Source of the DNA: Thiobacillus sp. | GTDB taxonomy: Bacteria > Pseudomonadota > Gammaproteobacteria > Burkholderiales > Thiobacillaceae | Direction: 5' to 3' | Length of the DNA: 12,496 nt | Assembly (NCBI GenBank): GCA_020217265.1 | Contig: JAIWOS010000188.1 | Coordinates: 1 to 12,496 of the forward strand | Shown here: positions 1,917-11,135 of the stretch, in pieces | How positions within the stretch are numbered: the first letter of the stretch is position 1 | How the letters are laid out: each line of letters opens with the position of its first letter | The notes under the pieces: generated by a model | What the model was told of the DNA's origin: nothing | The model's database searches: none | Seen by the model: only the letters and a program-made list of their open reading frames with translations | Translations under genes and position numbers: made by a program

Positions 1917-2714
1917 TCAGGCGGCCTCCTTCGGCCGCATCTGCCGGCTGTAGAGGAATTCCAGCACCTGGCTGCGCAGGTCGTGGTAGTTCGGATCGTG
2001 CGCCAGTTGCAGGCGGTCGCGCGGACGCGGCAGGTCGACCGCGAGGATTTCGCCAATGCTCGCCGCCGGGCCGTTGGTCATCATCACGATGCGGTCGGAC
2101 AAGAGCACGGCTTCGTCGACGTCGTGCGTGACCATCACCACGGTGCTTTTCGTCGCGGCGACGATCTTCATCAACTCGTCCTGCAAGTGCGCGCGGGTCA
2201 GCGCGTCGAGCGCGCCGAAGGGCTCGTCCAGAAGCAGCACTTTCGGCTCCATCGCCAGCGCCCGGGCGATGCCGACGCGCTGCTTCATGCCGCCGGAAAT
2301 CTCGCCGGGCAGCTTGTTGGCGGCATGCGCGAGGCCGACCAGTTCCAGCACCGCGCTGGTGCGTGCCTTCATCTGGGCCTTCGACTCCTTGTCGCCAAAC
2401 ACCTTTTCCACGGCGAGGTAGACATTCTCGAAAGCGGTAAGCCAGGGCAGCAGCGAATGGTTCTGGAACACCACGCCGCGTTCCGGCCCCGGTCCACGGA
2501 TTTCCTTGTTGGCGAGCAGCAGCACGCCGTCGGTGGCGTCGATCAGACCGGCGATGAGGTTGAGCAGGGTGGATTTGCCGCAGCCCGAGTGGCCGATGAG
2601 CGCGATGAATTCGCCCTGGTCGATGTGGAGGTTGATGCCGGTGAGCGCTGTGAACTTGCCCTTCCTGGTGCTGAAGGTCATGCCGGCGTTTTCGATCTGG
2701 ACATAGCTTTGCAT
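1917..2714 (-). CDS. nrtD: Nitrate/nitrite ABC transporter ATP-binding protein
   Basis: A 265-residue ABC ATPase that would energise nitrate import on the cytoplasmic face of NrtB. Visible motifs are Walker A GHSGCGKST (41-49), Q-loop Q84, signature SGGMKQR (140-146, in the form ISGGMKQR seen in the NrtC/NrtD/TauB/SsuB group), Walker B VLLLDE (159-164) and the switch histidine H197 in VTHD. The ATG at 2714 has GAGGAG seven bases upstream, and the gene begins 10 bases after the nrtB stop. Length and the NrtA-NrtB context identify it as NrtD. The cyanobacterial NrtC, with its fused substrate-binding domain, is absent, so a NrtD homodimer is expected. A bicarbonate, cyanate or sulfonate transporter is the family alternative, but the NrtA partner and the NasT-type leader point to nitrate or nitrite. 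Confidence 0.93.
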   Translation of the reverse strand: MQSYVQIENAGMTFSTRKGKFTALTGINLHIDQGEFIALIGHSGCGKSTLLNLIAGLIDATDGVLLLANKEIRGPGPERGVVFQNHSLLPWLTAFENVYLAVEKVFGDKESKAQMKARTSAVLELVGLAHAANKLPGEISGGMKQRVGIARALAMEPKVLLLDEPFGALDALTRAHLQDELMKIVAATKSTVVMVTHDVDEAVLLSDRIVMMTNGPAASIGEILAVDLPRPRDRLQLAHDPNYHDLRSQVLEFLYSRQMRPKEAA

Positions 2715-2724
2715 GATGTACTCC

Positions 2725-3633
2725 TCACTCGTAACTGAAGCGTTTGGCCACCAGCATCAGGCCCTGCTCCAGCAGCAGGCCGACGATGCCGACGACGAAG
2801 ATGGCGATGATGATGTGAGCGACGTTGAGGTTGTTCCATTCGTCCCACACCCAGAAGCCGATGCCTACACCGCCGGTGAGCATTTCCGCCGCGACGATCA
2901 CCAGCCAGGCCACGCCTATGGACAGGCGCACGCCGGTGAGCACGTAGGGCAGCACGGCCGGGAACAAAATTCTTGTGAAAACCTTGAACTCGGACAGATT
3001 GAGCACGCGCGCCACGTTCATGTAATCCTGCGGGATGCGCTGCACGCCCGCTGCCGTGTTGAGCACCATCGGCCAGATGCTGGAGATGAAGATCACCCAG
3101 ATCGACGCCGGCTCGGCCTTCTGCAGCACCAGGAGCCCGATCGGCAGCCACGCGAGCGGCGACACCGGGCGCAGGAGGCTGATGATGGGCGACATCATCT
3201 GGTTGAGAAAGCTGAAGCGGCCGATCAGAAAGCCCAGCGGAATCCCGATCAGCGCGGCGAAACCGAAGCCGATGCCGACGCGATACAGCGAGTTCAGGAT
3301 GTTCCAGCCGATGCCCTGGTCGTTGGGGCCGTTGTTGTAGAACGGATCGGAAAACAGCTCGACTGCAGCCGCCCAGGTTTCGCCCGGCCCGGGGATTTTC
3401 GCGCCGCTGTTGGCGATGAGCGCCCACAGCGCGACGAAGAGCGCCAGCCCGAGCACGGGCGGAATGGCCGCCTTCACGGCATGGCCAAGACCTTCGAGAA
3501 AGCGCTTGCCGCCTTCGGTTTCGAATAGCGGCGTGCGCCGTGGCGGCAACTCGGGCGCAGCGGCCGGCAGCCGTCCGGTTTCCGGCGCGGCCAGCGTCTG
3601 CGACAAGGTTTCGTTGAGGGTGACAGCGTTCAT
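2725..3633 (-). CDS. nrtB: Nitrate/nitrite ABC transporter permease
   Basis: A 302-residue binding-protein-dependent permease of the NrtB/TauC/SsuC type, six predicted membrane helices after a cytoplasmic N-terminal stretch of about 55 residues. The cytoplasmic EAA loop that docks with the ATPase is seen as NVARVLNLSEFKVFTRILFP followed by AVLP. The chosen ATG at 3633 has GAGG eight bases upstream (3645-3642). The alternative GTG at 3657 abuts the nrtA stop codon and has no ribosome binding site. The gene starts 24 bases after nrtA and ends 10 bases before nrtD, so the three are one operon. Substrate assignment comes from the adjoining NrtA and the regulatory leader, not from the permease itself. 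Confidence 0.92.
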   Translation of the reverse strand: MNAVTLNETLSQTLAAPETGRLPAAAPELPPRRTPLFETEGGKRFLEGLGHAVKAAIPPVLGLALFVALWALIANSGAKIPGPGETWAAAVELFSDPFYNNGPNDQGIGWNILNSLYRVGIGFGFAALIGIPLGFLIGRFSFLNQMMSPIISLLRPVSPLAWLPIGLLVLQKAEPASIWVIFISSIWPMVLNTAAGVQRIPQDYMNVARVLNLSEFKVFTRILFPAVLPYVLTGVRLSIGVAWLVIVAAEMLTGGVGIGFWVWDEWNNLNVAHIIIAIFVVGIVGLLLEQGLMLVAKRFSYE

Positions 3634-3657
3634 GGTAGGTACCTCGTTTCGCGGCAC

Positions 3658-4929
3658 TCAAGCCTTGATCTTGAAACTGTCGGCGTAGGCCTTGGGATTC
3701 TTGCCGTCCCACACCACGCCGTCGATGAGCTTGCTGGACCGCATGTCCGACTTGGGCAGAGGCGTCCGGGTCTGGGCTGCGGCCTCCTTGTAGATGTCGA
3801 TGCGGTTGACCTTCTTCGCCACGGCCAGGTAGTCCGGGTGTTCCTTCAGGAGGCCCCAGCGCTTGTGCTGGGTGAGGAACCACATGCCGTCCGACAGGTA
3901 GGGGAAGCCCACCGCGCCGTCGTTGTAGAACTTCATGTAGTTCGGATCCTGCCATTTCCTGCCGATGCCGTTGTCGTACTGGCCGAGCATGCGGTCCTCG
4001 ATCGAGTCGAAATCGGTGTTGACGTAGGACTTGGCCGAGATGATCTTCGCCACTTCGGAGCGGTTCTTCATGTCGTCGATGTATTTCGACGCATCGAGGA
4101 TCGCCGCGACCATCGCGCGCGCGGTGTTGGGATGCTTCTGCACGAATTCGGCGGTGGTGCCGAGCACCTTTTCAGGATGGTCTTTCCAGATGTCCTGCGT
4201 GGTGACTGCGGTGAAGCCGATGCCGTCGCGGATCGCGCGCGCGTTCCACGGCTCGCCCACGCAGTAGCCGTCCATGTTGTCGACCCGCATGTTGGCGACC
4301 ATCTGCGGCGGCGGCACGGTAATGACCTTGGCCTGCGTGAAGGGGTTGATGCCGTGCGCGGCCAGCCAGTAGTACAGCCACATCGCGTGCGTGCCGGTGG
4401 GAAAGGTCTGGGCGAAGGTGTATTCCTTCGGCTCGGCGGCGACCAGCCGGGCGAGCGAGGCGCCGTCGGTCACGCCCTTGGCCTTGAGCTGGTTGGAAAG
4501 CGTGATAGCCTGGCCGTTGTTGTTGAGCGTGGCGAGCACCGCCATGTCCTTCTTCGGCCCGCCGATGCCCAGTTGCACGCCGTAGACGAGGCCATACAGC
4601 ACGTGCGCGGCATCGAGTTCGCCGTTCACCAGCTTGTCGCGTACCGCCGCCCACGAGGCTTCCTTGGTCGGCGTGATGGTGAGTCCGTATTTCTTGTCGA
4701 AGCCCTTCACCGAGGCCATCACCACGCTCGCGCAGTCGGTGAGCGGAATGAAGCCGATGTTGACATTGGGTTTCTCGGGGGCGTCGGAACCTGCGGCCCA
4801 GGCGCCGCTTCGCACACCGGGGGGCACCAGGGCCATGAGGGCGGCGGCAACGGACAGTCCGGTCGTTTTCTTCATGAAATCACGCTTGCTGGGGTCCAGG
4901 GGCTGGGTCTGGTCGAGGGTGTCGCTCAC
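3658..4929 (-). CDS. nrtA: Nitrate/nitrite ABC transporter periplasmic substrate-binding protein
   Basis: A 423-residue NrtA-type receptor for nitrate or nitrite. The N-terminus holds SKRDFMKK followed by a hydrophobic stretch ending near AWAAG. This looks like a Tat-type signal with KR in place of RR, so the mature protein should be periplasmic. Family motifs include NVNIGFIPLTDCASVVMA, KEASWAAVRDKLVNGELDAA, GYCVGEPWNA and a C-terminal GVVWDGKNPKAY. The start is GTG at 4929 because GGAG lies six bases upstream (4939-4936); a TTG at 4941 would put the start inside that ribosome binding site. The family also includes NasS, the cytoplasmic nitrate sensor that sequesters NasT, but NasS lacks an export signal, so this protein is a transporter subunit. 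Transcription comes from a sigma-54 promoter at 5059-5044 and passes a terminator immediately before the gene. Confidence 0.92.
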   Translation of the reverse strand: MSDTLDQTQPLDPSKRDFMKKTTGLSVAAALMALVPPGVRSGAWAAGSDAPEKPNVNIGFIPLTDCASVVMASVKGFDKKYGLTITPTKEASWAAVRDKLVNGELDAAHVLYGLVYGVQLGIGGPKKDMAVLATLNNNGQAITLSNQLKAKGVTDGASLARLVAAEPKEYTFAQTFPTGTHAMWLYYWLAAHGINPFTQAKVITVPPPQMVANMRVDNMDGYCVGEPWNARAIRDGIGFTAVTTQDIWKDHPEKVLGTTAEFVQKHPNTARAMVAAILDASKYIDDMKNRSEVAKIISAKSYVNTDFDSIEDRMLGQYDNGIGRKWQDPNYMKFYNDGAVGFPYLSDGMWFLTQHKRWGLLKEHPDYLAVAKKVNRIDIYKEAAAQTRTPLPKSDMRSSKLIDGVVWDGKNPKAYADSFKIKA

Positions 4930-4935
4930 GGTTAT

Positions 4936-4976
4936 CTCCAAAAAATAAAGGCGTCGCCTTCAGGGCGGACGCCTTT
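4936..4976 (-). terminator. Leader terminator (attenuator) directly before nrtA
   Basis: In the minus-strand RNA, AAAGGCGTC (4976-4968) pairs with GACGCCTTT (4955-4947). GCC/GGC pairing continues inside (4966-4964 with 4958-4956) around a CTGAA loop, with C4967 bulged. An A and six T residues follow (4945-4940), and the T-run runs straight into the GGAG ribosome binding site (4939-4936). This is a textbook intrinsic terminator placed between promoter and start codon. It therefore regulates nrtABD rather than ending an upstream gene. Its ascending arm overlaps the P2 hairpin listed separately. Confidence 0.85.
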
Positions 4977-5028
4977 GTCCAGTGATGAATGATTTGACGG
5001 TCACGCTGAAAGCCACATCGTTGCGACT
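4967..5028 (-). promoter_or_regulatory. ANTAR (NasT) target: two-hairpin antitermination element in nrtA leader
   Basis: ANTAR proteins are known to bind two stem-loops whose hexanucleotide loops have A at position 1 and G at position 4. Here P1 is AGTCGC-AACGAT-GTGGCT (5028-5011), a six-pair stem with two G-U wobbles and loop AACGAT. P2 is GGAC-AAAGGC-GTCC (4980-4967) with loop AAAGGC. Both loops fit the rule. P2 uses 4976-4968, the ascending arm of the terminator, so P2 formation and termination exclude each other. P1 starts only about five bases from the predicted transcript start. The linker of about 30 bases contains no strong stem. NasT encoded at 8400-8960 is the obvious candidate ligand. 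Confidence 0.75.
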
Positions 5029-5043
5029 GTTCAAGCGAGATTT

Positions 5044-5059
5044 AGCAATGCCTGTGCCA
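5044..5059 (-). promoter_or_regulatory. Sigma-54 promoter of nrtA operon
   Basis: The minus strand reads TGGCAC (5059-5054), AGGCA (5053-5049), TTGCT (5048-5044), a perfect match to the -24/-12 core TGGCAC-N5-TTGCW with the required ten bases between GG and GC. The predicted start is near 5033-5032, giving a leader of about 100 bases to the GTG at 4929. Confidence 0.85.
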
Positions 5060-5176
5060 GTAACACAGATCTGTCGGAAACCCGGCCTTTGCAAGGCGCA
5101 ACGTGAGCAAAGCCAAGATGTCCCCGTGTGGATATTGGGAATGAATGCTCGGTTCTGGAGCGTCGTTCCGCCCGCT

Positions 5177-5193
5177 TGCACCAGAATGGACTC
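5177..5193 (-). promoter_or_regulatory. Probable NtrC-binding site upstream of nrtA
   Basis: The minus-strand sequence GAGTCCATTCTGGTGCA matches the NtrC consensus TGCACCA-N3-TGGTGCA with one perfect half site (TGGTGCA) and CCA in the other half, 10 of 14 defined positions. Its centre is about 153 bases upstream of the predicted sigma-54 start, in the normal enhancer range. It overlaps the stop codon of the upstream cheX-like gene. Confidence 0.5.
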
Positions 5194-5668
5194 ACGCGCC
5201 GCACCGATCGACTTCGACGATCAACAGCGCGTTGTATTTCTTCCAATTGAGCGGGATCGCGAAGGCGTGTTCGCCCGTTGCTGCGGGGGCCCCGCGCTGG
5301 GTCTGCGGCACAGAGATGACGAACCGGTCGCCGAAGTAGCGGCGCGCGTTGCCGGACAGGGTGTTGGCCACTTCCCCGACCAGGTCGAGCAGGGTGTCCT
5401 CGCTGTGCTGGGATTCGCCCTGTGACAGCAGCAGATGGCGCAGCATGGCGCTGGGCGCACTGAAATAGACCTGCCCCTGGAATTGGCCGCTGATCCGGAT
5501 CAGGCCGGTGTAATCGCCGCGCCGCCGGTCGTCTTCGTCGGTCAGGTAGGCGGGACGCACCTGCGCGTCCTCGGCCGATATCTGGTGGAAATAATGGGCG
5601 ATTGCCTCGACGAACACGTTGAGGTCGTCTGGTTTGAGGCTGGCGTAGGGGTGTGCCTGAGCGTTCAT
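5192..5668 (-). CDS. CheX/CheC-family chemotaxis phosphatase-like protein
   Basis: A 158-residue cytoplasmic protein resembling CheX, which dephosphorylates CheY-P. The family's active-site pattern E-x2-N is present as E99 and N102 in LVGEVANTLSGNAR, with the following glycine G106. The beta strands FQGQVYFSAPSAMLRHLL and HAFAIPLNWKKYNALLIVEV fit the CheC/CheX fold; only one E-x2-N motif is seen, as in CheX. The ATG at 5668 overlaps the stop of the CheY-like gene by four bases (ATGA), indicating translational coupling and a likely shared pathway. Many longer in-frame extensions exist upstream but would run through the cheY-like gene. It is predicted to reset the signal from the sensor kinase at 6072-8132. 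Its true substrate is inferred from the neighbouring gene. Confidence 0.82.
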   Translation of the reverse strand: MNAQAHPYASLKPDDLNVFVEAIAHYFHQISAEDAQVRPAYLTDEDDRRRGDYTGLIRISGQFQGQVYFSAPSAMLRHLLLSQGESQHSEDTLLDLVGEVANTLSGNARRYFGDRFVISVPQTQRGAPAATGEHAFAIPLNWKKYNALLIVEVDRCGA

Positions 5669-6075
5669 TGTGACAGTTCCTTCAGGGCCTGGACGAGTTG
5701 CTCGTCGGTAAAGGGTTTGAACAGGAATCCGTTCGCGCCGCGCTTGATGGCTTCCAGCGCGGTGACCTTGTCGCTGAGCGCTGACACGACCAGTACGCGG
5801 ATGTCGGGCTTGAGCTTCACCAGTGCGTCGACACAATCGATGCCGTCCATTTCCGGCATGGTCAGGTCGAGGGTCACCAGATCGGGCTGGTATTGTGCGC
5901 ACAGCCGCACCGCTTCGAGGCCGTTGCGCGCCAGACCGACGATATGGGTGTTCAGCAGACCGTTTCCAGCAATGCGGGCGATGCGGTTGCGGATGACGCT
6001 GGAATCGTCCACCACCATCAGCCGCACGCGCGTGAGGTCCTGCCGTGCGGCGTTCGCTTCGGGCGTGTTTCTCAT
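5665..6075 (-). CDS. CheY-like single-domain response regulator
   Basis: A 136-residue receiver with no output domain. All catalytic residues are visible: acidic pair D23-D24 (VVDDSS), phosphoacceptor D70 in LVTLDLTMPEMDG, S98 (VVSALS) and K120 (GFLFKP). It should therefore be a functional phospho-acceptor, in contrast to the receiver of NasT encoded nearby. The ATG at 6075 overlaps the TGA of the sensor kinase gene by four bases, and its own TGA overlaps the next ATG by four bases, so kinase, receiver and phosphatase are translationally coupled. Expected role: accept phosphate from the HPt histidine of the kinase and be dephosphorylated by the CheX-like protein. The downstream target is not visible. 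Options are a flagellar motor, a type IV pilus, or a diguanylate cyclase or transcription partner elsewhere. Confidence 0.93.
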   Translation of the reverse strand: MRNTPEANAARQDLTRVRLMVVDDSSVIRNRIARIAGNGLLNTHIVGLARNGLEAVRLCAQYQPDLVTLDLTMPEMDGIDCVDALVKLKPDIRVLVVSALSDKVTALEAIKRGANGFLFKPFTDEQLVQALKELSQ

Positions 6076-8132
6076 GCCGGCACCGTGAAGCGGATGGAAA
6101 ATTCGGTGAAACGCTCGGGGCGTGTCGCAATGCTCAGACGTGCGCCGAGGCGGGCGATTTTCTGCTTCACCACGTCCAGCCCGACGCCGTGTCCGGCGTC
6201 GCGGTCACCGGTGGTGACGGTGGAAAAACCGGGTTCGAAGATGCGCATGATGAGTTGCTTGTGGTCCCACTGGTCAAGCTGCTCGACGGTGTAGCGTCCT
6301 GAAGCCAAGAGGGTTTCCCGGATGCGTGCCGGCGACAGGCCGCTGCCGTCGTCGCGCACGCAGAGTTCAAACTCGCCGTTGTCGTGGGCGTGCAGGCGGA
6401 TGTGCACGTTACCCTGTGCGGGCTTGTTGAGCTGGGTGCGTTGCTGCGGCGTTTCGATGCCGTGGACGACGGCGTTGCGCAGCAGTTGCACGGCGATTTC
6501 ACTCACCGTGGTCTGCGCGCAGGGGTCGAGCGCGTTCAGCTTGTCGAGTTCGACGGCGAGTTCGACCGCCTTGCCGTGATCCGCCGCGATGCGTTTGCCC
6601 AGTTGGGCGAAGCGCTTGCCCGCGAGCACGGCCGGGGTGTGCTGCACACGGCTGGAGGTCAGGCGTTCGGCGATGTCGCGCACCGTCGCGAGCCGGTCGA
6701 GAAAGGCGTCGAGCTTGAGCGGAATCGCGACCAGATCGTTGCCGCGCAGGTCGGGCTGCTCGCGCAGGGCGATCAGCAGGCGTTCGAATTCGTGCGCCTG
6801 CGCCTCGAACAGATCCAGGCCCAGCATGGCGGCGTCGCCCTTGAGCGTGTGGATTTGACGGAAGATGCCGTTGATCAGTCCGTCGTAGCGCTCGTCGCTG
6901 TTGTGGTTTTTCAGCGTGGTGTTGATCCGCAGCAGCGTCTGCCGGGCCTGATCCAGGAATCCCAGCAGGCTCGCGCTGTCGGTTGTCAGCACTTTGAGCA
7001 GCGCTTCGGTCTCGCTGCGGGTTCGGGCGTCCGCCGCCGCCAGCGCGCGTTCCAGCCGGACCTGTTCGCTCACGTCCTGTACCGTGACCAGCAGATGCGA
7101 GACGCGGCCGCCGACACGCACCTGGTTGAAATGTATGCTGAGAAAATGCGTCTGCGGTTCCCCTCGATCATTGGTTTGAGTCATTTCCATCAGGCTCAGC
7201 GGGTTGAGATCGCCCATCAGCGATTCCTTCACCCGGTCGCCAAACAGCAGCCTGGCGTAATCGCGCGCAGCCTGCAGCGCGGTTGCCGGCACCCGTTCGT
7301 CCAGCACCTCGAAAAAGTCGGTGCCTGGCCGGGCGCGTTCGCCGAGGATGCCGGGCAGCGACGCCGACACCTGGGTGCCGATGCGCAAATCCGGCCCGAG
7401 CAGGAACAGGCCTTCCTTGACGGTGGCGAGGATTTCCTGCGTTTCCTGCTGCGCGGCCTCGATCACCTGATCGCTTTCGCGCAACTGGCGCAGGAAGTGC
7501 ACCAGAATGAAGGCAAAGTTGAGCAGCGCGAGCGCGATGCCTGCGGTCTGGATCAGGCGCAGGCGGCTGGCCTTGGCCGAGGCCTCGCGTTCCAGGTGAC
7601 TGGTGAGGTCATTCATGAGACCCAGCAGCTTGACGTTGTTGGCGCGGCCATAGGCCACGGCAGCGGGCAGCCGGGTTTCCCAGCTCGCGTCGCCGCGCAG
7701 GACCGGTTGCAGCGCGGCGAGGTAGGGATCCCACACTGCGCGCGCCTTGGCCAGAATCGCCCTGCCGGCCGGGCTCGCCACGGCAACGAGCGGAACCGGT
7801 GTGCCATCGCCACCCTTGACCTCGCCGCCCGATTCGAAACCCCGGAAGCTCGTGTCGAACAGCGCAACCGTGGTGCGCAACTCCTCCAGCGCCGCGTCCT
7901 GCGGTTCGCCCGCCAGCGCGTCTGACTGCATCGCCAGCAGAGACTTGGTCATGCGCTGCGACAACATGCGCTGGCGGCCGGCCAGGTTGATCGACACGGC
8001 ATCCTCGGAAATCTGGTACGAGGTGTAGAAGTTCAGCACCAATACGCCCAGGTCGAAGAGCAGGAAGGCCGCGACGGCGTACACGATCTGGCGATATTTT
8101 CCCGGGATCCATTTGGCAAGCGACAAGCTCAC
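6072..8132 (-). CDS. PilJ-type sensor, PAS, HPt and CheA-like ATPase kinase (hybrid CheA-like histidine kinase)
   Basis: A 686-residue membrane kinase from GTG 8132, which has AGGAG six bases upstream. Longer in-frame starts (up to 8375) would put the promoter and leader terminator inside the gene. Order: TM1 about 16-36; periplasmic PilJ/NarX-type domain beginning INLAGRQRMLSQRM (48-61), the P-box-like segment that binds nitrate in NarX; TM2 about 194-214; PAS-like region about 230-355; HPt domain with phospho-histidine H428 in IHTLKGDAAMLG; CheA-like HATPase with N-box QLLRNAVVHGIE (N553), G1 DDGSGL and G2 GHGVGLDVVKQKI. There is no CheW-like P5 domain and no classical HisKA dimerisation domain. 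The CheY-like and CheX-like genes follow with four-base overlaps. Nitrate or nitrite sensing is inferred from the P-box and the regulon; another small ligand is possible. Confidence 0.88.
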   Translation of the reverse strand: MSLSLAKWIPGKYRQIVYAVAAFLLFDLGVLVLNFYTSYQISEDAVSINLAGRQRMLSQRMTKSLLAMQSDALAGEPQDAALEELRTTVALFDTSFRGFESGGEVKGGDGTPVPLVAVASPAGRAILAKARAVWDPYLAALQPVLRGDASWETRLPAAVAYGRANNVKLLGLMNDLTSHLEREASAKASRLRLIQTAGIALALLNFAFILVHFLRQLRESDQVIEAAQQETQEILATVKEGLFLLGPDLRIGTQVSASLPGILGERARPGTDFFEVLDERVPATALQAARDYARLLFGDRVKESLMGDLNPLSLMEMTQTNDRGEPQTHFLSIHFNQVRVGGRVSHLLVTVQDVSEQVRLERALAAADARTRSETEALLKVLTTDSASLLGFLDQARQTLLRINTTLKNHNSDERYDGLINGIFRQIHTLKGDAAMLGLDLFEAQAHEFERLLIALREQPDLRGNDLVAIPLKLDAFLDRLATVRDIAERLTSSRVQHTPAVLAGKRFAQLGKRIAADHGKAVELAVELDKLNALDPCAQTTVSEIAVQLLRNAVVHGIETPQQRTQLNKPAQGNVHIRLHAHDNGEFELCVRDDGSGLSPARIRETLLASGRYTVEQLDQWDHKQLIMRIFEPGFSTVTTGDRDAGHGVGLDVVKQKIARLGARLSIATRPERFTEFSIRFTVPA

Positions 8133-8163
8133 GGTGTTCTCCTGATTGATCTGGAACTGATGC

Positions 8164-8203
8164 AAAAAAAAGCGCCTGGCTCCCATGCGGGAGGTCAGGA
8201 CGC
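8164..8203 (-). terminator. Leader terminator (attenuator) before the sensor kinase gene
   Basis: In minus-strand RNA, CTCCC (8193-8189) pairs with GGGAG (8184-8180) around loop GCAT. CCTG (8199-8196) pairs with CAGG (8178-8175), and GCG (8203-8201) with CGC (8174-8172), with small internal mismatches. Eight T residues follow (8171-8164). The terminator sits 31 bases before the GTG start, downstream of the predicted promoter, so it acts as an attenuator. Confidence 0.8.
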
Positions 8204-8243
8204 CTTTGCCCATGCAGGCGAGGCACGATGCCGACGACTGCAT
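8198..8243 (-). promoter_or_regulatory. ANTAR (NasT) target: two-hairpin element in sensor-gene leader
   Basis: P2 is GGGC-AAAGGC-GTCC (8211-8198), a four-pair stem with one G-U and the same hexaloop AAAGGC as in the nrtA leader. An 11-base block CAAAGGCGTCC is identical in both. P2 overlaps the terminator arm (8203-8198), so the folds are exclusive. Immediately upstream, ATGCAG (8243-8238) pairs with CTGCAT (8217-8212), enclosing an inner GGC-ATCGT-GCC hairpin whose loop has A1 and G4 but five bases. This would be P1, directly stacked on P2 and starting at the predicted transcript 5' end. P1 fits the ANTAR rule less well than P2. Confidence 0.65.
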
Positions 8244-8253
8244 GACCGGAACA

Positions 8254-8269
8254 AGCAATTGGCGTGCCG
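8254..8269 (-). promoter_or_regulatory. Sigma-54 promoter of sensor-kinase operon
   Basis: The minus strand reads CGGCACG-CCAA-TTGCT (8269-8254). Compared with TGGCACG-N4-TTGCW, only the first base differs, and the GG and GC elements are ten bases apart. The predicted start is near 8243, so the leader to GTG 8132 is about 110 bases and contains P1, P2 and the terminator in order. Confidence 0.75.
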
Positions 8270-8344: not shown

Positions 8345-8372
8345 CAAACATGGGGGCACCCATTCGGTGCCC
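8345..8372. promoter_or_regulatory. Probable NtrC-binding dyad upstream of the sensor operon
   Basis: The minus strand carries GGGGCACC, GAATG, GGTGCCCC, flanked by CAT and CATG, an almost perfect dyad. The core GCACC-N5-GGTGC (8370-8356) is the known NtrC recognition form. Its centre lies about 120 bases upstream of the predicted sigma-54 start. It is also a stable hairpin just after the nasT stop codon but lacks a T-run, so enhancer function is the better reading. Confidence 0.65.
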
Positions 8373-8399: not shown

Positions 8400-8960
8400 T
8401 CAGGCCTTGTGCAGAATCTGCCGCGCGATGTCGGCGAGCTTCATGCCGCGATCCATCGCGGCGCGGCGCATCTCGCGATACACCTCGGGTTCGGACGCGC
8501 CGGTCTGCCTGATGAGCAGCGCCTTGGCCTGGTCGATGAGCTTGCGCTCGGCGAGTTCGAGCCGGGTTTGCTCCAGTTGGTCGTGCAGCGCCTGGAAGGC
8601 TTCGAAGCGCGACACCGCCACGTCGAGGATGGGTTTGATGCGCGCCGGGTCGAGGCCGTCGACGACGTAGGAGGTGACGCCGGCCTGGGTCGCGGCACGG
8701 ATCGCATCGGTGCTGCCGTCGTCGGTGAACATCACGATCGGGCGCGGGCAGCCTTGATTGGCCACGCAGATGTTTTCCAGCGTGTCGCGGTCGGGCGAAT
8801 CGGTGGCGATGATCACCACGTCCGGACGCAGCGCCTGCACCTGCGCATCGAGGCTCGCTGCCGAATTGAGCGTGGCGGCCACCACGCAGCCCGCGGCTTC
8901 GAGGGCGGGCATCAGCATGGCCAGCCGCTCGGGCTGGTTTTCAACGATCAAAACTCTCAT
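8400..8960 (-). CDS. nasT: ANTAR-domain transcription antiterminator NasT
   Basis: A 186-residue RNA-binding antiterminator for nitrate-assimilation genes. The N-terminal receiver-like domain (1-120) has family wording SPDRDTLE and RPIVMFTDD...SYVVDGL. A linker helix follows, then the ANTAR domain from about 130 (LAERKLIDQAKALLIRQTG, EVYREMRRAAMDRGMKLADI, ARQIL). The receiver looks inactive: position 52, where the phosphoacceptor Asp should be (PDVVIIATD), is Ala, and the usual Lys is absent (SYVVDG). In described NasS-NasT systems a nitrate-binding NrtA homologue, NasS, holds NasT inactive; no NasS is in this window. Candidate RNA targets lie before nrtA and the sensor gene. The ATG at 8960 follows a GAG about seven bases upstream; its own leader also ends in a terminator. 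Confidence 0.93.
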   Translation of the reverse strand: MRVLIVENQPERLAMLMPALEAAGCVVAATLNSAASLDAQVQALRPDVVIIATDSPDRDTLENICVANQGCPRPIVMFTDDGSTDAIRAATQAGVTSYVVDGLDPARIKPILDVAVSRFEAFQALHDQLEQTRLELAERKLIDQAKALLIRQTGASEPEVYREMRRAAMDRGMKLADIARQILHKA

Positions 8961-9078: not shown

Positions 9079-9094
9079 AGCAGGGGGCGTGCCA
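9079..9094 (-). promoter_or_regulatory. Sigma-54 promoter of nasT
   Basis: The minus strand reads TGGCACG-CCCC-CTGCT (9094-9079). Only one base differs from TGGCACG-N4-TTGCT and GG/GC spacing is correct. The predicted start is near 9068, giving a leader of about 108 bases to the ATG at 8960. Confidence 0.75.
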
Positions 9095-9295: not shown

Positions 9296-10600
9296 TCAGT
9301 TGAAGCTGTCGGCGAACAGGCTGTCGGCCCAGGTGAACATGTCCTGGTAGCTGTCGCCGTCGATCATGTTGTGGGCGGCTTCGCCTGTGTCGACCCGGTG
9401 CATGCCCTTGCCTTTCACGTTGCCTGTGGCGTCGAAGATGTCGCCATAGATGAAGTTGGCGGACAGCCACGACGCGGTCTTGTTGGTGATCGGACTGAAG
9501 CAGGCCGAACTGGTGGCGATGTTCGTGTCCGGCGCTTGTCCGCTGAACGAACGCACGATCGCGTCGGCGCAGACCTTGGCTTCCGAGTTGGCCATGTGGC
9601 CGGATTTCGGCACCGCCTTGCCGTCGCTTGCGGGCACGGCGCAGGCATCGCCGATGACGTGGATGTTGGGATAGCCCGCAACGCCATAAGTCAGCGGATC
9701 GACAGGTACGAAGCCGCTGCCGTTGACCGGCAGGCCGGCGGCGATGGCGCCCGCGCGCTGGTTGGGAATGTAGTTGAGCACCTTGGCCTTGTTGACCGTC
9801 CTGGCCGACGTCACGATCGAGCGCGTGGCGGAATCCACCGACTGCACCACCGCATTGGGGACGTATTCGATCATGCCGCCATAGGTCACGTTGAAGGCGT
9901 AGCTGAAGGCTTCGGGTTCGGCGGTGATGCCGGGGTTGGCGTCGAGCACCACCACCTTGGCGCCGGTGCGGCCCTTGCGCTTGAGATAGTCGGCGACCAC
10001 GCAGGCACGCTCGTACGGCCCGGGCGGACAGCGGTAGGGCGCTTTCGGCACCGTCATCACGAAGGTGTCTGCCACGCCCATCGACGCCAGCTGGTTTTTC
10101 AGCAAGGTGGTTTGCGGGCCGGCCTGCCAGGCGTGCGGGGTCAGGTTGGGATTCCAGTTGCCGGCCGCCGGCGCGAAATCGATCCCCGGCGACAGCACCA
10201 GGTGATCGTAGGGCAGGATCCGGTTGCCGGTTGCGGTGCTGACGGTCAGCGTGTTGCCCGGCGCGTCGATGGCGAGCGCGCGGCCCTGCAGCACGGCTAT
10301 GCCGTATTTGGTCTTCAGGGAATCGAAGCCGAGGGTGATGCGGTTCATCGACAGTCCGCCGGTGACGACCAGATTGGAAAGAATGCAGGACACATGGCTG
10401 GGATTGGCGTCGACCAGGGTGACCTGGACATTGCCGCCCCACAAGCGCACGTACTTGGCGAGGGTGGCGCCGCCAAAACCGCCGCCCACCACGACGACGC
10501 GCGGGGCCGTGGTGGCCGCGCCGACGGCGCGGGGGACGGCAGCCAGCGCAGACAGCGCACCGGCCAGCTTGAGGAATTGTCTTCTGTTCAGGGTGTTCAT
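9296..10600 (-). CDS. fccB: Flavocytochrome c sulfide dehydrogenase, flavoprotein subunit
   Basis: A 434-residue FAD protein that oxidises sulfide to sulfur or polysulfide in the periplasm and passes electrons to a cytochrome c subunit. The N-terminus has a classic Tat signal, NRRQFLKLAGALSALAA, cleaved around residue 29-30. The FAD-binding motif is VVVVGGGFGGATLAKYV (about 35-51), and a second nucleotide-fold motif is NIHVIGDAC (312-320). C191 in YRCPPGPYERAC and C367 in SSACF lie exactly 30 residues after the mature positions 161 and 337 of the redox disulfide of the Allochromatium enzyme, so the active-site pair is preserved. The ATG at 10600 has GGAGGAG six bases upstream. It follows fccA by 17 bases. 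SoxF is the close alternative, but no other sox genes are present here. Confidence 0.93.
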   Translation of the reverse strand: MNTLNRRQFLKLAGALSALAAVPRAVGAATTAPRVVVVGGGFGGATLAKYVRLWGGNVQVTLVDANPSHVSCILSNLVVTGGLSMNRITLGFDSLKTKYGIAVLQGRALAIDAPGNTLTVSTATGNRILPYDHLVLSPGIDFAPAAGNWNPNLTPHAWQAGPQTTLLKNQLASMGVADTFVMTVPKAPYRCPPGPYERACVVADYLKRKGRTGAKVVVLDANPGITAEPEAFSYAFNVTYGGMIEYVPNAVVQSVDSATRSIVTSARTVNKAKVLNYIPNQRAGAIAAGLPVNGSGFVPVDPLTYGVAGYPNIHVIGDACAVPASDGKAVPKSGHMANSEAKVCADAIVRSFSGQAPDTNIATSSACFSPITNKTASWLSANFIYGDIFDATGNVKGKGMHRVDTGEAAHNMIDGDSYQDMFTWADSLFADSFN

Positions 10601-10617
10601 GGTGTGCTCCTCCCGGG

Positions 10618-10929
10618 TCAGTCGCCGCCGTTGCCGGGCTGGGTGGCGAGGTAGTCGGCGATCAGCCGCAGCTGTTCGTCGGTGTAGCCGCGCGCCTGCC
10701 GGTCCATGATGCCTTCGACGGGGCGGTACTTCATGTCGAGCAGCTCGTGGAAGAGGCTGGAGGCGCTTTTGCCGGCGATGGACTCGAAGCCGGGGCCTGC
10801 GCCGTTGGTGCCGTGGCACTGGGCGCACTGGGCGGCCAGGAGCCGGCCGGGACCGGCGCTGGCCGGCAGGGCGGTCAGCAGGAGTGCCGCCGCGGCCAGC
10901 GCGGCGCGAGCAGGATGAAGGAAGTTCAT
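10618..10929 (-). CDS. fccA: Monohaem c-type cytochrome subunit of flavocytochrome c sulfide dehydrogenase
   Basis: A 103-residue exported class I cytochrome c. Signal peptide 1-25 (MNFLHPARAALAAAALLL then TALPASA). One haem site CAQCH at 35-39 with H39 as ligand, and a probable distal ligand M74 in GIMDRQARGYTDEQL, the wording seen in FccA and cytochrome c553/c554-like proteins. It is expected to take electrons from the FAD of FccB in the periplasm. Allochromatium FccA has two haems; this one is the short single-haem form, as in Chlorobium. The ATG at 10929 has AAGGA about eight bases upstream; a longer in-frame extension to 10998 has no signal-peptide logic. It is transcribed with fccB, probably from the sigma-54-like promoter at 11120-11135. 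Confidence 0.88.
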   Translation of the reverse strand: MNFLHPARAALAAAALLLTALPASAGPGRLLAAQCAQCHGTNGAGPGFESIAGKSASSLFHELLDMKYRPVEGIMDRQARGYTDEQLRLIADYLATQPGNGGD

Positions 10930-11119
10930 GTCATTGTCCTTGAACGGGGTGGCAGGATGGCCGGAGGGCGTCTGGCGGCACACAGGGCCGCGCAACACTC
11001 CCCAGCGCGCTGGGGGCAGGCAGGCAAATCACGCCGGCCTGACGATACGGATGATGCTTATGGATGAATCCTCCCTGTTTCTTTCGGTGCCTCGCCGACT
11101 AGGCGAGTGCCGCAGGGAT

Positions 11120-11135
11120 AGCGACAACCGTGCCA
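11120..11135 (-). promoter_or_regulatory. Probable sigma-54 promoter of fccAB
   Basis: The minus strand reads TGGCACG-GTTG-TCGCT (11135-11120). The -24 element is perfect, the -12 element differs by one base (TCGC for TTGC), and GG and GC are ten bases apart. The predicted start is near 11109, about 180 bases before the fccA ATG. The single mismatch and the long leader make this less certain than the nrtA promoter. Confidence 0.55.

Follow-up and report, generated by a model that had tools for sequence, protein, structure and literature searches.

The stretch of DNA analysed here (the window) comprises 12,496 nucleotides of Thiobacillus sp. (GenBank assembly GCA_020217265.1, contig JAIWOS010000188.1), in which three adjoining genes, for a sensor kinase, a CheY-like receiver and a CheX-type protein (the triad), lie between the nitrate assimilation genes nasT and nrtA. 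A preliminary description of the sequence had proposed that the kinase is a self-contained, nitrate- or nitrite-responsive enzyme of CheA type placed in the nitrate regulon. Our results suggest that the triad is a real and conserved variant of known parts, apparently undescribed, and that nitrate is well supported as its predicted signal. The three genes are the following:

6072..8132, reverse strand: sensor kinase, 686 amino acids, with a PilJ/N-box sensor flanked by long helices and, after it, a PAS-like region, an HPt (H428) and a CheA P4-type ATPase
5665..6075, reverse strand: CheY-like stand-alone receiver with D70 (Pfam; the best solved relatives are CheY)
5192..5674, reverse strand: CheX-type protein with an ExxN motif, E101 and N104 (Pfam and conservation)

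Sensor motif and phosphotransfer residues

The domain order of the kinase given by Pfam is PilJ (residues 36-141), Hpt (392-481, containing H428) and HATPase_c (547-683), which agrees with the earlier statement that the protein joins a PilJ-type domain to an HPt and a CheA-like ATPase without CheW; the Pfam scan found neither a CheW domain nor a CheA-like P5/CheW regulatory domain, and the protein stops at the ATPase. An HPt with its histidine and a P4 ATPase, both of them CheA features, are present and the ATPase is nearest to CheA P4, while the score of the kinase against the NCBIfam equivalog for CheA stays below the cut-off (125.6 bits in comparison to 950). The kinase core of NarX and NarQ has its own histidine phosphotransfer and dimerisation domain, of the HisKA_3 type, and a domain of this kind was not seen in the kinase, for which Pfam gives Hpt and HATPase_c only. 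As to the PAS domain that had been claimed, Pfam does not call one, but part of the predicted model has a mixed alpha/beta structure, with strands at 241-255 and 315-353, and may be read as PAS-like.

For the periplasmic sensor, a NarX-like P-box, the motif known from NarX, had been suggested. This was set aside, since the N-box of the chemoreceptor McpN fits exactly and the sensor scores as PilJ, with both a match to Pfam PF13675 and the four-helix ligand-binding domain fold. The published N-box has the pattern [IVL]-[ND]-x-A-G-x-Q-R-M-L-[ST]-Q, and R61 of McpN gives two hydrogen bonds to nitrate (PMC6381276). Residues 48-59 of the kinase, INLAGRQRMLSQ, match this pattern without exception, and because of this match we regard the sensor as McpN-type rather than as one with a NarX P-box. 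R55 of the kinase is the equivalent of McpN R61, and both R55 and H428 are kept in 26 of 26 aligned relatives, selected from the 120 matches listed. Judged from its motif, the sensor likely binds nitrate; nitrite is not favoured as a ligand by analogy with McpN, which bound nitrate and not nitrite (PMC6381276).

The active sites of the two partner proteins are conserved as well. In the receiver, which has no output domain, D70, the acid pair, S98 and K120 are kept in 85 of 85 hits, and in the CheX-type protein (PF13690 at 55.5 bits, cut-off 27) the E and N of ExxN, which we take to be the CheX motif, are kept in 84 of 84 hits, with a few duplicate loci among the hits in both cases. The residues of a predicted phosphotransfer chain, namely H428 of the kinase, the D70 set of the receiver and the CheX ExxN, are thus intact.

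Control signals and neighbouring nitrate genes

Promoter-type sites and leader elements were identified before the kinase gene, nrtA and nasT:

8356..8370, no strand assigned: NtrC-like dyad GCACC-N5-GGTGC, 0 mismatches, about 87 bp upstream of the -24 element of the kinase gene
8254..8269, reverse strand: sigma-54-type promoter of the kinase gene, CGGCACGCCAATTGCT, 1 mismatch to TGGCAC-N5-TTGCW
8198..8211, reverse strand: ANTAR P2-type hairpin of the kinase leader, GGGC-AAAGGC-GUCC, with A1 and G4 in the hexaloop
8164..8204, reverse strand: intrinsic terminator of the kinase leader (hairpin scan), overlapping the 3' arm of P2 and followed by eight T
5044..5059, reverse strand: sigma-54 promoter of nrtA, 0 mismatches, kept in 10 of 10 same-genus loci
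5011..5028, reverse strand: ANTAR P1 hairpin of the nrtA leader, AGUCGC-AACGAU-GUGGCU, with an A1/G4 hexaloop
4966..4981, reverse strand: P2 hairpin (ANTAR) of the nrtA leader, UGGAC-AAAGGC-GUCCG, which overlaps a terminator with its end at about 4949
9079..9094, reverse strand: sigma-54-type promoter of nasT, 1 mismatch

Targets of ANTAR proteins consist of two hairpins (PMC3369931) whose hexaloops carry A1 and G4, the second lying at the base of a terminator. The nrtA leader has both P1 and P2, each with A1 and G4, and its P2 element, GGACAAAGGCGTCC, is found in 10 of 10 same-genus loci. Composites of a P2 hairpin overlapping a terminator occur exactly twice in the window, both strands counted, in the kinase leader (8211-8171) and in the nrtA leader (4981-4949), in comparison to a mean of 0.025 and a maximum of 1 in 40 shuffles, and the AAAGGC loop is identical in the two. 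The earlier statement that the kinase gene has the same control architecture as nrtA therefore stands for the sigma-54 sites, the P2 hairpin with its loop and the terminator, but only in part for the NtrC-like dyad, which is perfect before the kinase gene and was not found with two or fewer mismatches before nrtA of the window, where the best site has three. The ten same-genus gaps between nasT and nrtA hold a perfect dyad in four cases, one with one mismatch in four and one with two in two. The dyad at 8356..8370 could alternatively, by eye, be part of the nasT terminator stem; a second perfect dyad lies inside nrtD (2348-2362), and the pattern overall is at chance in the window (16 found, 15.6 expected). 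The sigma-54 pattern at up to two mismatches is likewise not rarer than chance (10 found, 7.1 expected; a fourth site with one mismatch lies at 11120-11135), so that place and conservation carry the weight. Taken together, these signals suggest that production of the kinase may be restricted to times of active nitrate assimilation.

The resemblance between the kinase leader and the nrtA leader is confined to motifs. An origin of the one by duplication of the other was considered and rejected: a start context of 16 bases that the kinase gene seemed, by eye, to have in common with same-genus nrtA genes did not hold, the longest common stretch being 11 bases and the shuffle maximum 13, and blastn gave no similarity at E 0.01. 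The nrtA leader (4950-5071, reverse strand) also matched the Rfam models P11 (RF00625, E 0.0044) and narK RNA (RF03032, E 0.46) below their gathering scores, and it may be that both models represent leaders of NasT type and not small RNAs in their own right.

The nitrate genes on both sides of the triad are:

8400..8960, reverse strand: nasT, receiver plus ANTAR, with Ala at the phospho-acceptor position
3658..4929, reverse strand: nrtA, NMT1_2 substrate-binding protein; the frame is open from 4941, GTG at 4929 being the likely start
2725..3657, reverse strand: nrtB, ABC permease (Pfam)
1917..2714, reverse strand: nrtD, ABC ATPase (Pfam)

Two further reverse-strand genes follow nrtD: that at 404-1426 gave a weak Cache-domain match (E 2e-5, below the cut-off) and recurs after nrtD in loci L175, L178 and partly L174, and that at 1404-1907 encodes a 167-residue protein matching no Pfam or NCBIfam family and is present again in L178. 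Upstream of nasT (9296-10998, reverse strand) lie a flavoprotein of the flavocytochrome c sulfide dehydrogenase type and a small open reading frame with CxxCH, seen by eye; a similar flavoprotein adjoins nasT in L179.

Occurrence of the triad in other genomes

A protein search found at least 1516 homologues of the kinase at E 1e-10, and PilJ, Hpt and HATPase_c occur together in 118 of 120 among the matches listed. Two genome surveys were drawn, one from the order and one from the class, and a match was present in 17 of 399 genomes in the former and in 12 of 369 in the latter, own genome included in both. Among the 82 distinct loci whose kinase was of sufficient length, 78 have kinase, receiver and CheX together, and three of the four loci without the full triad end near a contig edge. 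Before these counts were made, we dropped loci with a short or interrupted kinase (L056, L066, L067, L120), those that were incomplete or missed the receiver hit (L068, L069), those in which the PilJ part matched alone (L070, L071, L073-L088) and duplicates (L107, L110, L140, L145, L148). The strict published N-box is present in 25 of the 82 loci and a looser form (A/S, Q/E, two free positions) in 61; the class of N-box-like loci (n = 62), assigned by hand, consists of these 61 and L043 (INLGGRQRMLSQ), which was added by eye. A variant from Comamonadaceae has the motif INLSGRQRYVSQ.

With linkage defined as presence within the fetched stretch of up to 10 kb, 26 of the 62 N-box-like loci are near nitrate assimilation genes (L031 being counted on a NarK-type gene alone), five are beside napA and 31 have no nitrate gene in view, while none of the 20 loci without an N-box-like motif is linked; the loci with no nitrate gene nearby thus total 51, of which 12 are on short contigs. 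Many Burkholderiales have related triads near assimilation genes; in others napA is the neighbour. The usual order of linked loci is nasT-nrtA-nrtB-nrtD-kinase-receiver-cheX, and in L013 the genes that come next are nirB, nirD and one of nasA type; NirB and NirD score above their NCBIfam cut-offs, and the nasA-type gene and the NarK-type gene of L063 below theirs. In L051 napA, napG and napH are above the cut-offs and a NapC/NirT-type gene is below, and in L047 molybdate-type ABC genes, read from Pfam domains, precede the triad. On a quick tree of the cytoplasmic part of the kinase, assimilation linkage needs at least eight changes and nap linkage three. That the N-box predicts nitrate linkage (31 of 62 loci in comparison to 0 of 20, p 2.6e-5) is not claimed, since the sampling is biased to N-box kinases: 80 of the related loci, the best-scoring ones, were found with patterns that include the N-box.

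Some individual loci deserve mention. A molybdate-type ABC ATPase gene stands just before the kinase gene in L044, L046, L047, L049 and L068 (Azoarcus-type or related metagenome-assembled genomes), and nap genes follow in L044 and L047. In the complete genome of Polaromonas sp. P2-4 (L067, 10001-12027) a nitrate-linked kinase matches in separate pieces and looks like a pseudogene. L142 (5751-13311) has two tandem triads without an N-box and an extra CheX-type gene, and in L141 (11713-12954) a fusion of a receiver and a protein kinase, a possible output protein, comes directly after the CheX gene.

Proposed pathway, rival readings and known systems

We think it probable that the triad is a self-contained nitrate-signalling module, in which the sensor kinase acts on the receiver, which is reset by CheX, under the control of NtrC, sigma-54 and NasT. 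Nitrate would bind via R55, on the axis of the PilJ dimer in the periplasm, and the signal would be relayed by the second membrane helix and then by the PAS-like region to the CheA-type core (HPt H428 and P4 ATPase), which would autophosphorylate and then phosphorylate D70 of the adjoining receiver, from which the CheX protein would take the phosphate off. Since receptor and kinase are one protein, no CheW link would be needed. Expression would be tied to nitrogen limitation and nitrate via NtrC/sigma-54 and NasT antitermination, and the receiver would act in trans. The analysis shows the domains, the conserved catalytic residues and N-box, the P2/terminator leader, the repeated linkage and the absence of the triad from ten same-genus loci, whereas nitrate binding, phosphotransfer, control by the regulon and an output in motility are inferred from these. 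In terms of the original proposal, the N-box, the active sites and the linkage speak for a self-contained kinase with a likely nitrate sensor in the nitrate regulon, but nitrite is not favoured as its signal.

A number of results weigh against such a module. P1 is not clear in the kinase leader, where a hexaloop hairpin was not found, although a five-base loop, AUCGU, is possible by eye. Of the other linked loci in which the kinase is uninterrupted, 0 of 31 have a P2 leader directly before its gene. The strict N-box occurs in 9 of the 26 assimilation loci and in none of the five nap loci. The preliminary description had counted it against itself if the set were common away from nitrate genes, and this is half borne out, as half of the N-box-like loci (31 of 62, 11 of them on short contigs) and all 20 motif-less ones lie away from such genes. 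When the genome surveys are taken alone, linkage is 2 of 12 for N-box-like loci and 0 of 19 for the others (p 0.14), and the tree lacks the power to test the association between N-box and linkage independently. As to genome content, NapA or NirB is present in 27 of 30 genomes with an N-box-like triad lacking local linkage, the figures being 17 of 32 for order controls (Fisher p 0.002) and 9 of 16 for genomes with motif-less triads (p 0.020); genome size and kinship confound such co-occurrence tests.

The genus of the window also counts against the module. An NrtA-like protein at E 1e-60 is present in 43 of 56 genomes of the genus, 29 of them (own genome included) at 82% identity or more, and regions were fetched from 10 of the 28 other genomes of this latter group. 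In 10 of 10 regions nasT is directly followed by nrtABD with no triad. A survey of 117 genomes of the family gave a full-length kinase in the own genome only, the seven other matches being of the sensor part alone. As nasT and nrtA of the window are 82-93% identical to their same-genus counterparts, the genes on either side of the triad are native to this genus, and the triad is probably a lineage-specific insertion, the alternative being loss in all ten same-genus loci; the evidence for insertion comes from one incomplete assembly (84.6%, 231 contigs).

No neighbour family is shared by motif-less triads beyond close relatives, and ten flanking proteins that were scanned are of mixed kinds; the neighbourhood thus does not name the output. 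A FliM match is missing from 25 of the 59 genomes with an N-box-like triad (a set that includes L067 and G652, in which the kinase gene is interrupted), so flagella cannot be the general output, which leaves room for pili. Every triad genome scanned (75 of 75) has PilT, which, with no baseline to set it against, is only a hint for pili. Our leading guess is that the output acts in trans on motility, perhaps through type IV pili. A fuller picture is offered tentatively and is, as a whole, rather doubtful: a portable chemosensory pathway for nitrate in which a single receptor, fused to its CheA-type kinase in one membrane protein, works with a CheY and a CheX of its own. The nitrate-assimilation regulon would switch this pathway on, and under nitrogen shortage it would direct surface or type IV pilus motility towards nitrate without recourse to flagella or CheW arrays.

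It is unlikely, though worth weighing, that the module instead feeds standard flagellar chemotaxis, with its receiver competing with or replacing CheY at the motor. CheW homologues are present in 59 of 59 genomes with an N-box-like triad in comparison to 38 of 63 controls, a difference that genome size and kinship confound, the receiver is nearest to CheY among solved structures, a chemoreceptor gene is near the triad in L014 and L029, and the own genome has FliM; against this stand the genomes without FliM just mentioned, the kinase without a CheW-like domain, and three genomes with motif-less triads that have no CheW match at all. The position of the triad, bracketed by nasT and nrtA here and with nasT near it in many linked loci, may also suggest a missing nitrate input that replaces NasS and signals nitrate to NasT or to nrtABD transcription. 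In G053 and G058, two genomes of the genus that consist of a single contig, NrtA is the one NMT1_2 protein, so that a separate NasS seems absent at least there (one was also found in the incomplete own genome, and four to six in the same-genus genomes G063, G082 and G106). The acceptor Asp of NasT, however, is replaced by Ala both here and in all same-genus loci compared (10 of 10), whereas 14 of the 15 NasT-like proteins hit in other genera have Asp (L026, which does not, may be a different protein), and phosphorylation of NasT by the kinase is thus unlikely here; the ten relatives keep nasT-nrtABD without any triad and many triads have no nasT nearby, which makes a role as NasS substitute quite improbable. 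Finally, the many unlinked loci counted above would suit a general-purpose sensor module that is next to nitrate genes in the window by chance, but linkage recurs across the tree (Comamonadaceae, Oxalobacteraceae-like, Methylotenera, Spongiibacteraceae, and Azoarcus-type with nap) with differing gene orders, and the kinase gene carries a regulon-type leader of its own, so a chance neighbourhood seems very unlikely.

If the proposed nitrate-signalling module is real, nitrate assimilation in many Burkholderiales and relatives has a dedicated chemotaxis-type sensory pathway, and nitrogen foraging and nitrate uptake would be wired together. The kinase, as a natural and compact fusion of a receptor and a CheA-type kinase, would be useful for studying such kinases without CheW, and the triad would be a testable setting for orphan CheY-CheX pairs.

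The remark that no described nitrate-assimilation system has this part is supported in so far as no description of the triad was found among the hits listed from an open-access library (titles and opening lines, most subscription journals lying outside it), but the triad is not unique to the window, as the 78 of 82 loci demonstrate. The terms HPt and CheX do not occur in the available part of the text of a review of nitrate-sensing kinases (PMC8199190). The closest known sensor is McpN (PA2788) of Pseudomonas aeruginosa, which shares the PilJ-type four-helix periplasmic domain, the N-box and R61 in the place of R55, but is a chemoreceptor signalling via a separate Che pathway (CheA1), whereas the sensor of the window is fused to its kinase; the mcpN transcript, moreover, falls with nitrate, in contrast to the nitrate-regulon signals of the kinase gene (PMC6381276). 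NarX-NarL and NarQ-NarP likewise place a periplasmic four-helix nitrate sensor on a membrane kinase (PMC8199190 and general knowledge), but here there are an HPt phospho-histidine, a CheA-type ATPase, a receiver without a DNA-binding domain and an N-box. Similar to the CheA-CheY-CheX core, the triad has an HPt (P1), a P4 ATPase, a CheY-like receiver and a CheX-type protein with ExxN, but its kinase has no CheW-like domain and has its own membrane-anchored sensor and PAS-like region. NasS-NasT is related to the locus by the adjoining nasT, the ANTAR-type leader before nrtA and the P2-type leader before the kinase gene; it senses nitrate through a NasS-NasT contact that nitrate dissolves, and it includes no kinase (PMC3795266). 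In EutV-EutW, too, a kinase gene lies in the same neighbourhood as an ANTAR regulator (PMC3369931 and general knowledge), but EutV is activated by phosphorylation, whereas NasT of the window has no acceptor Asp.

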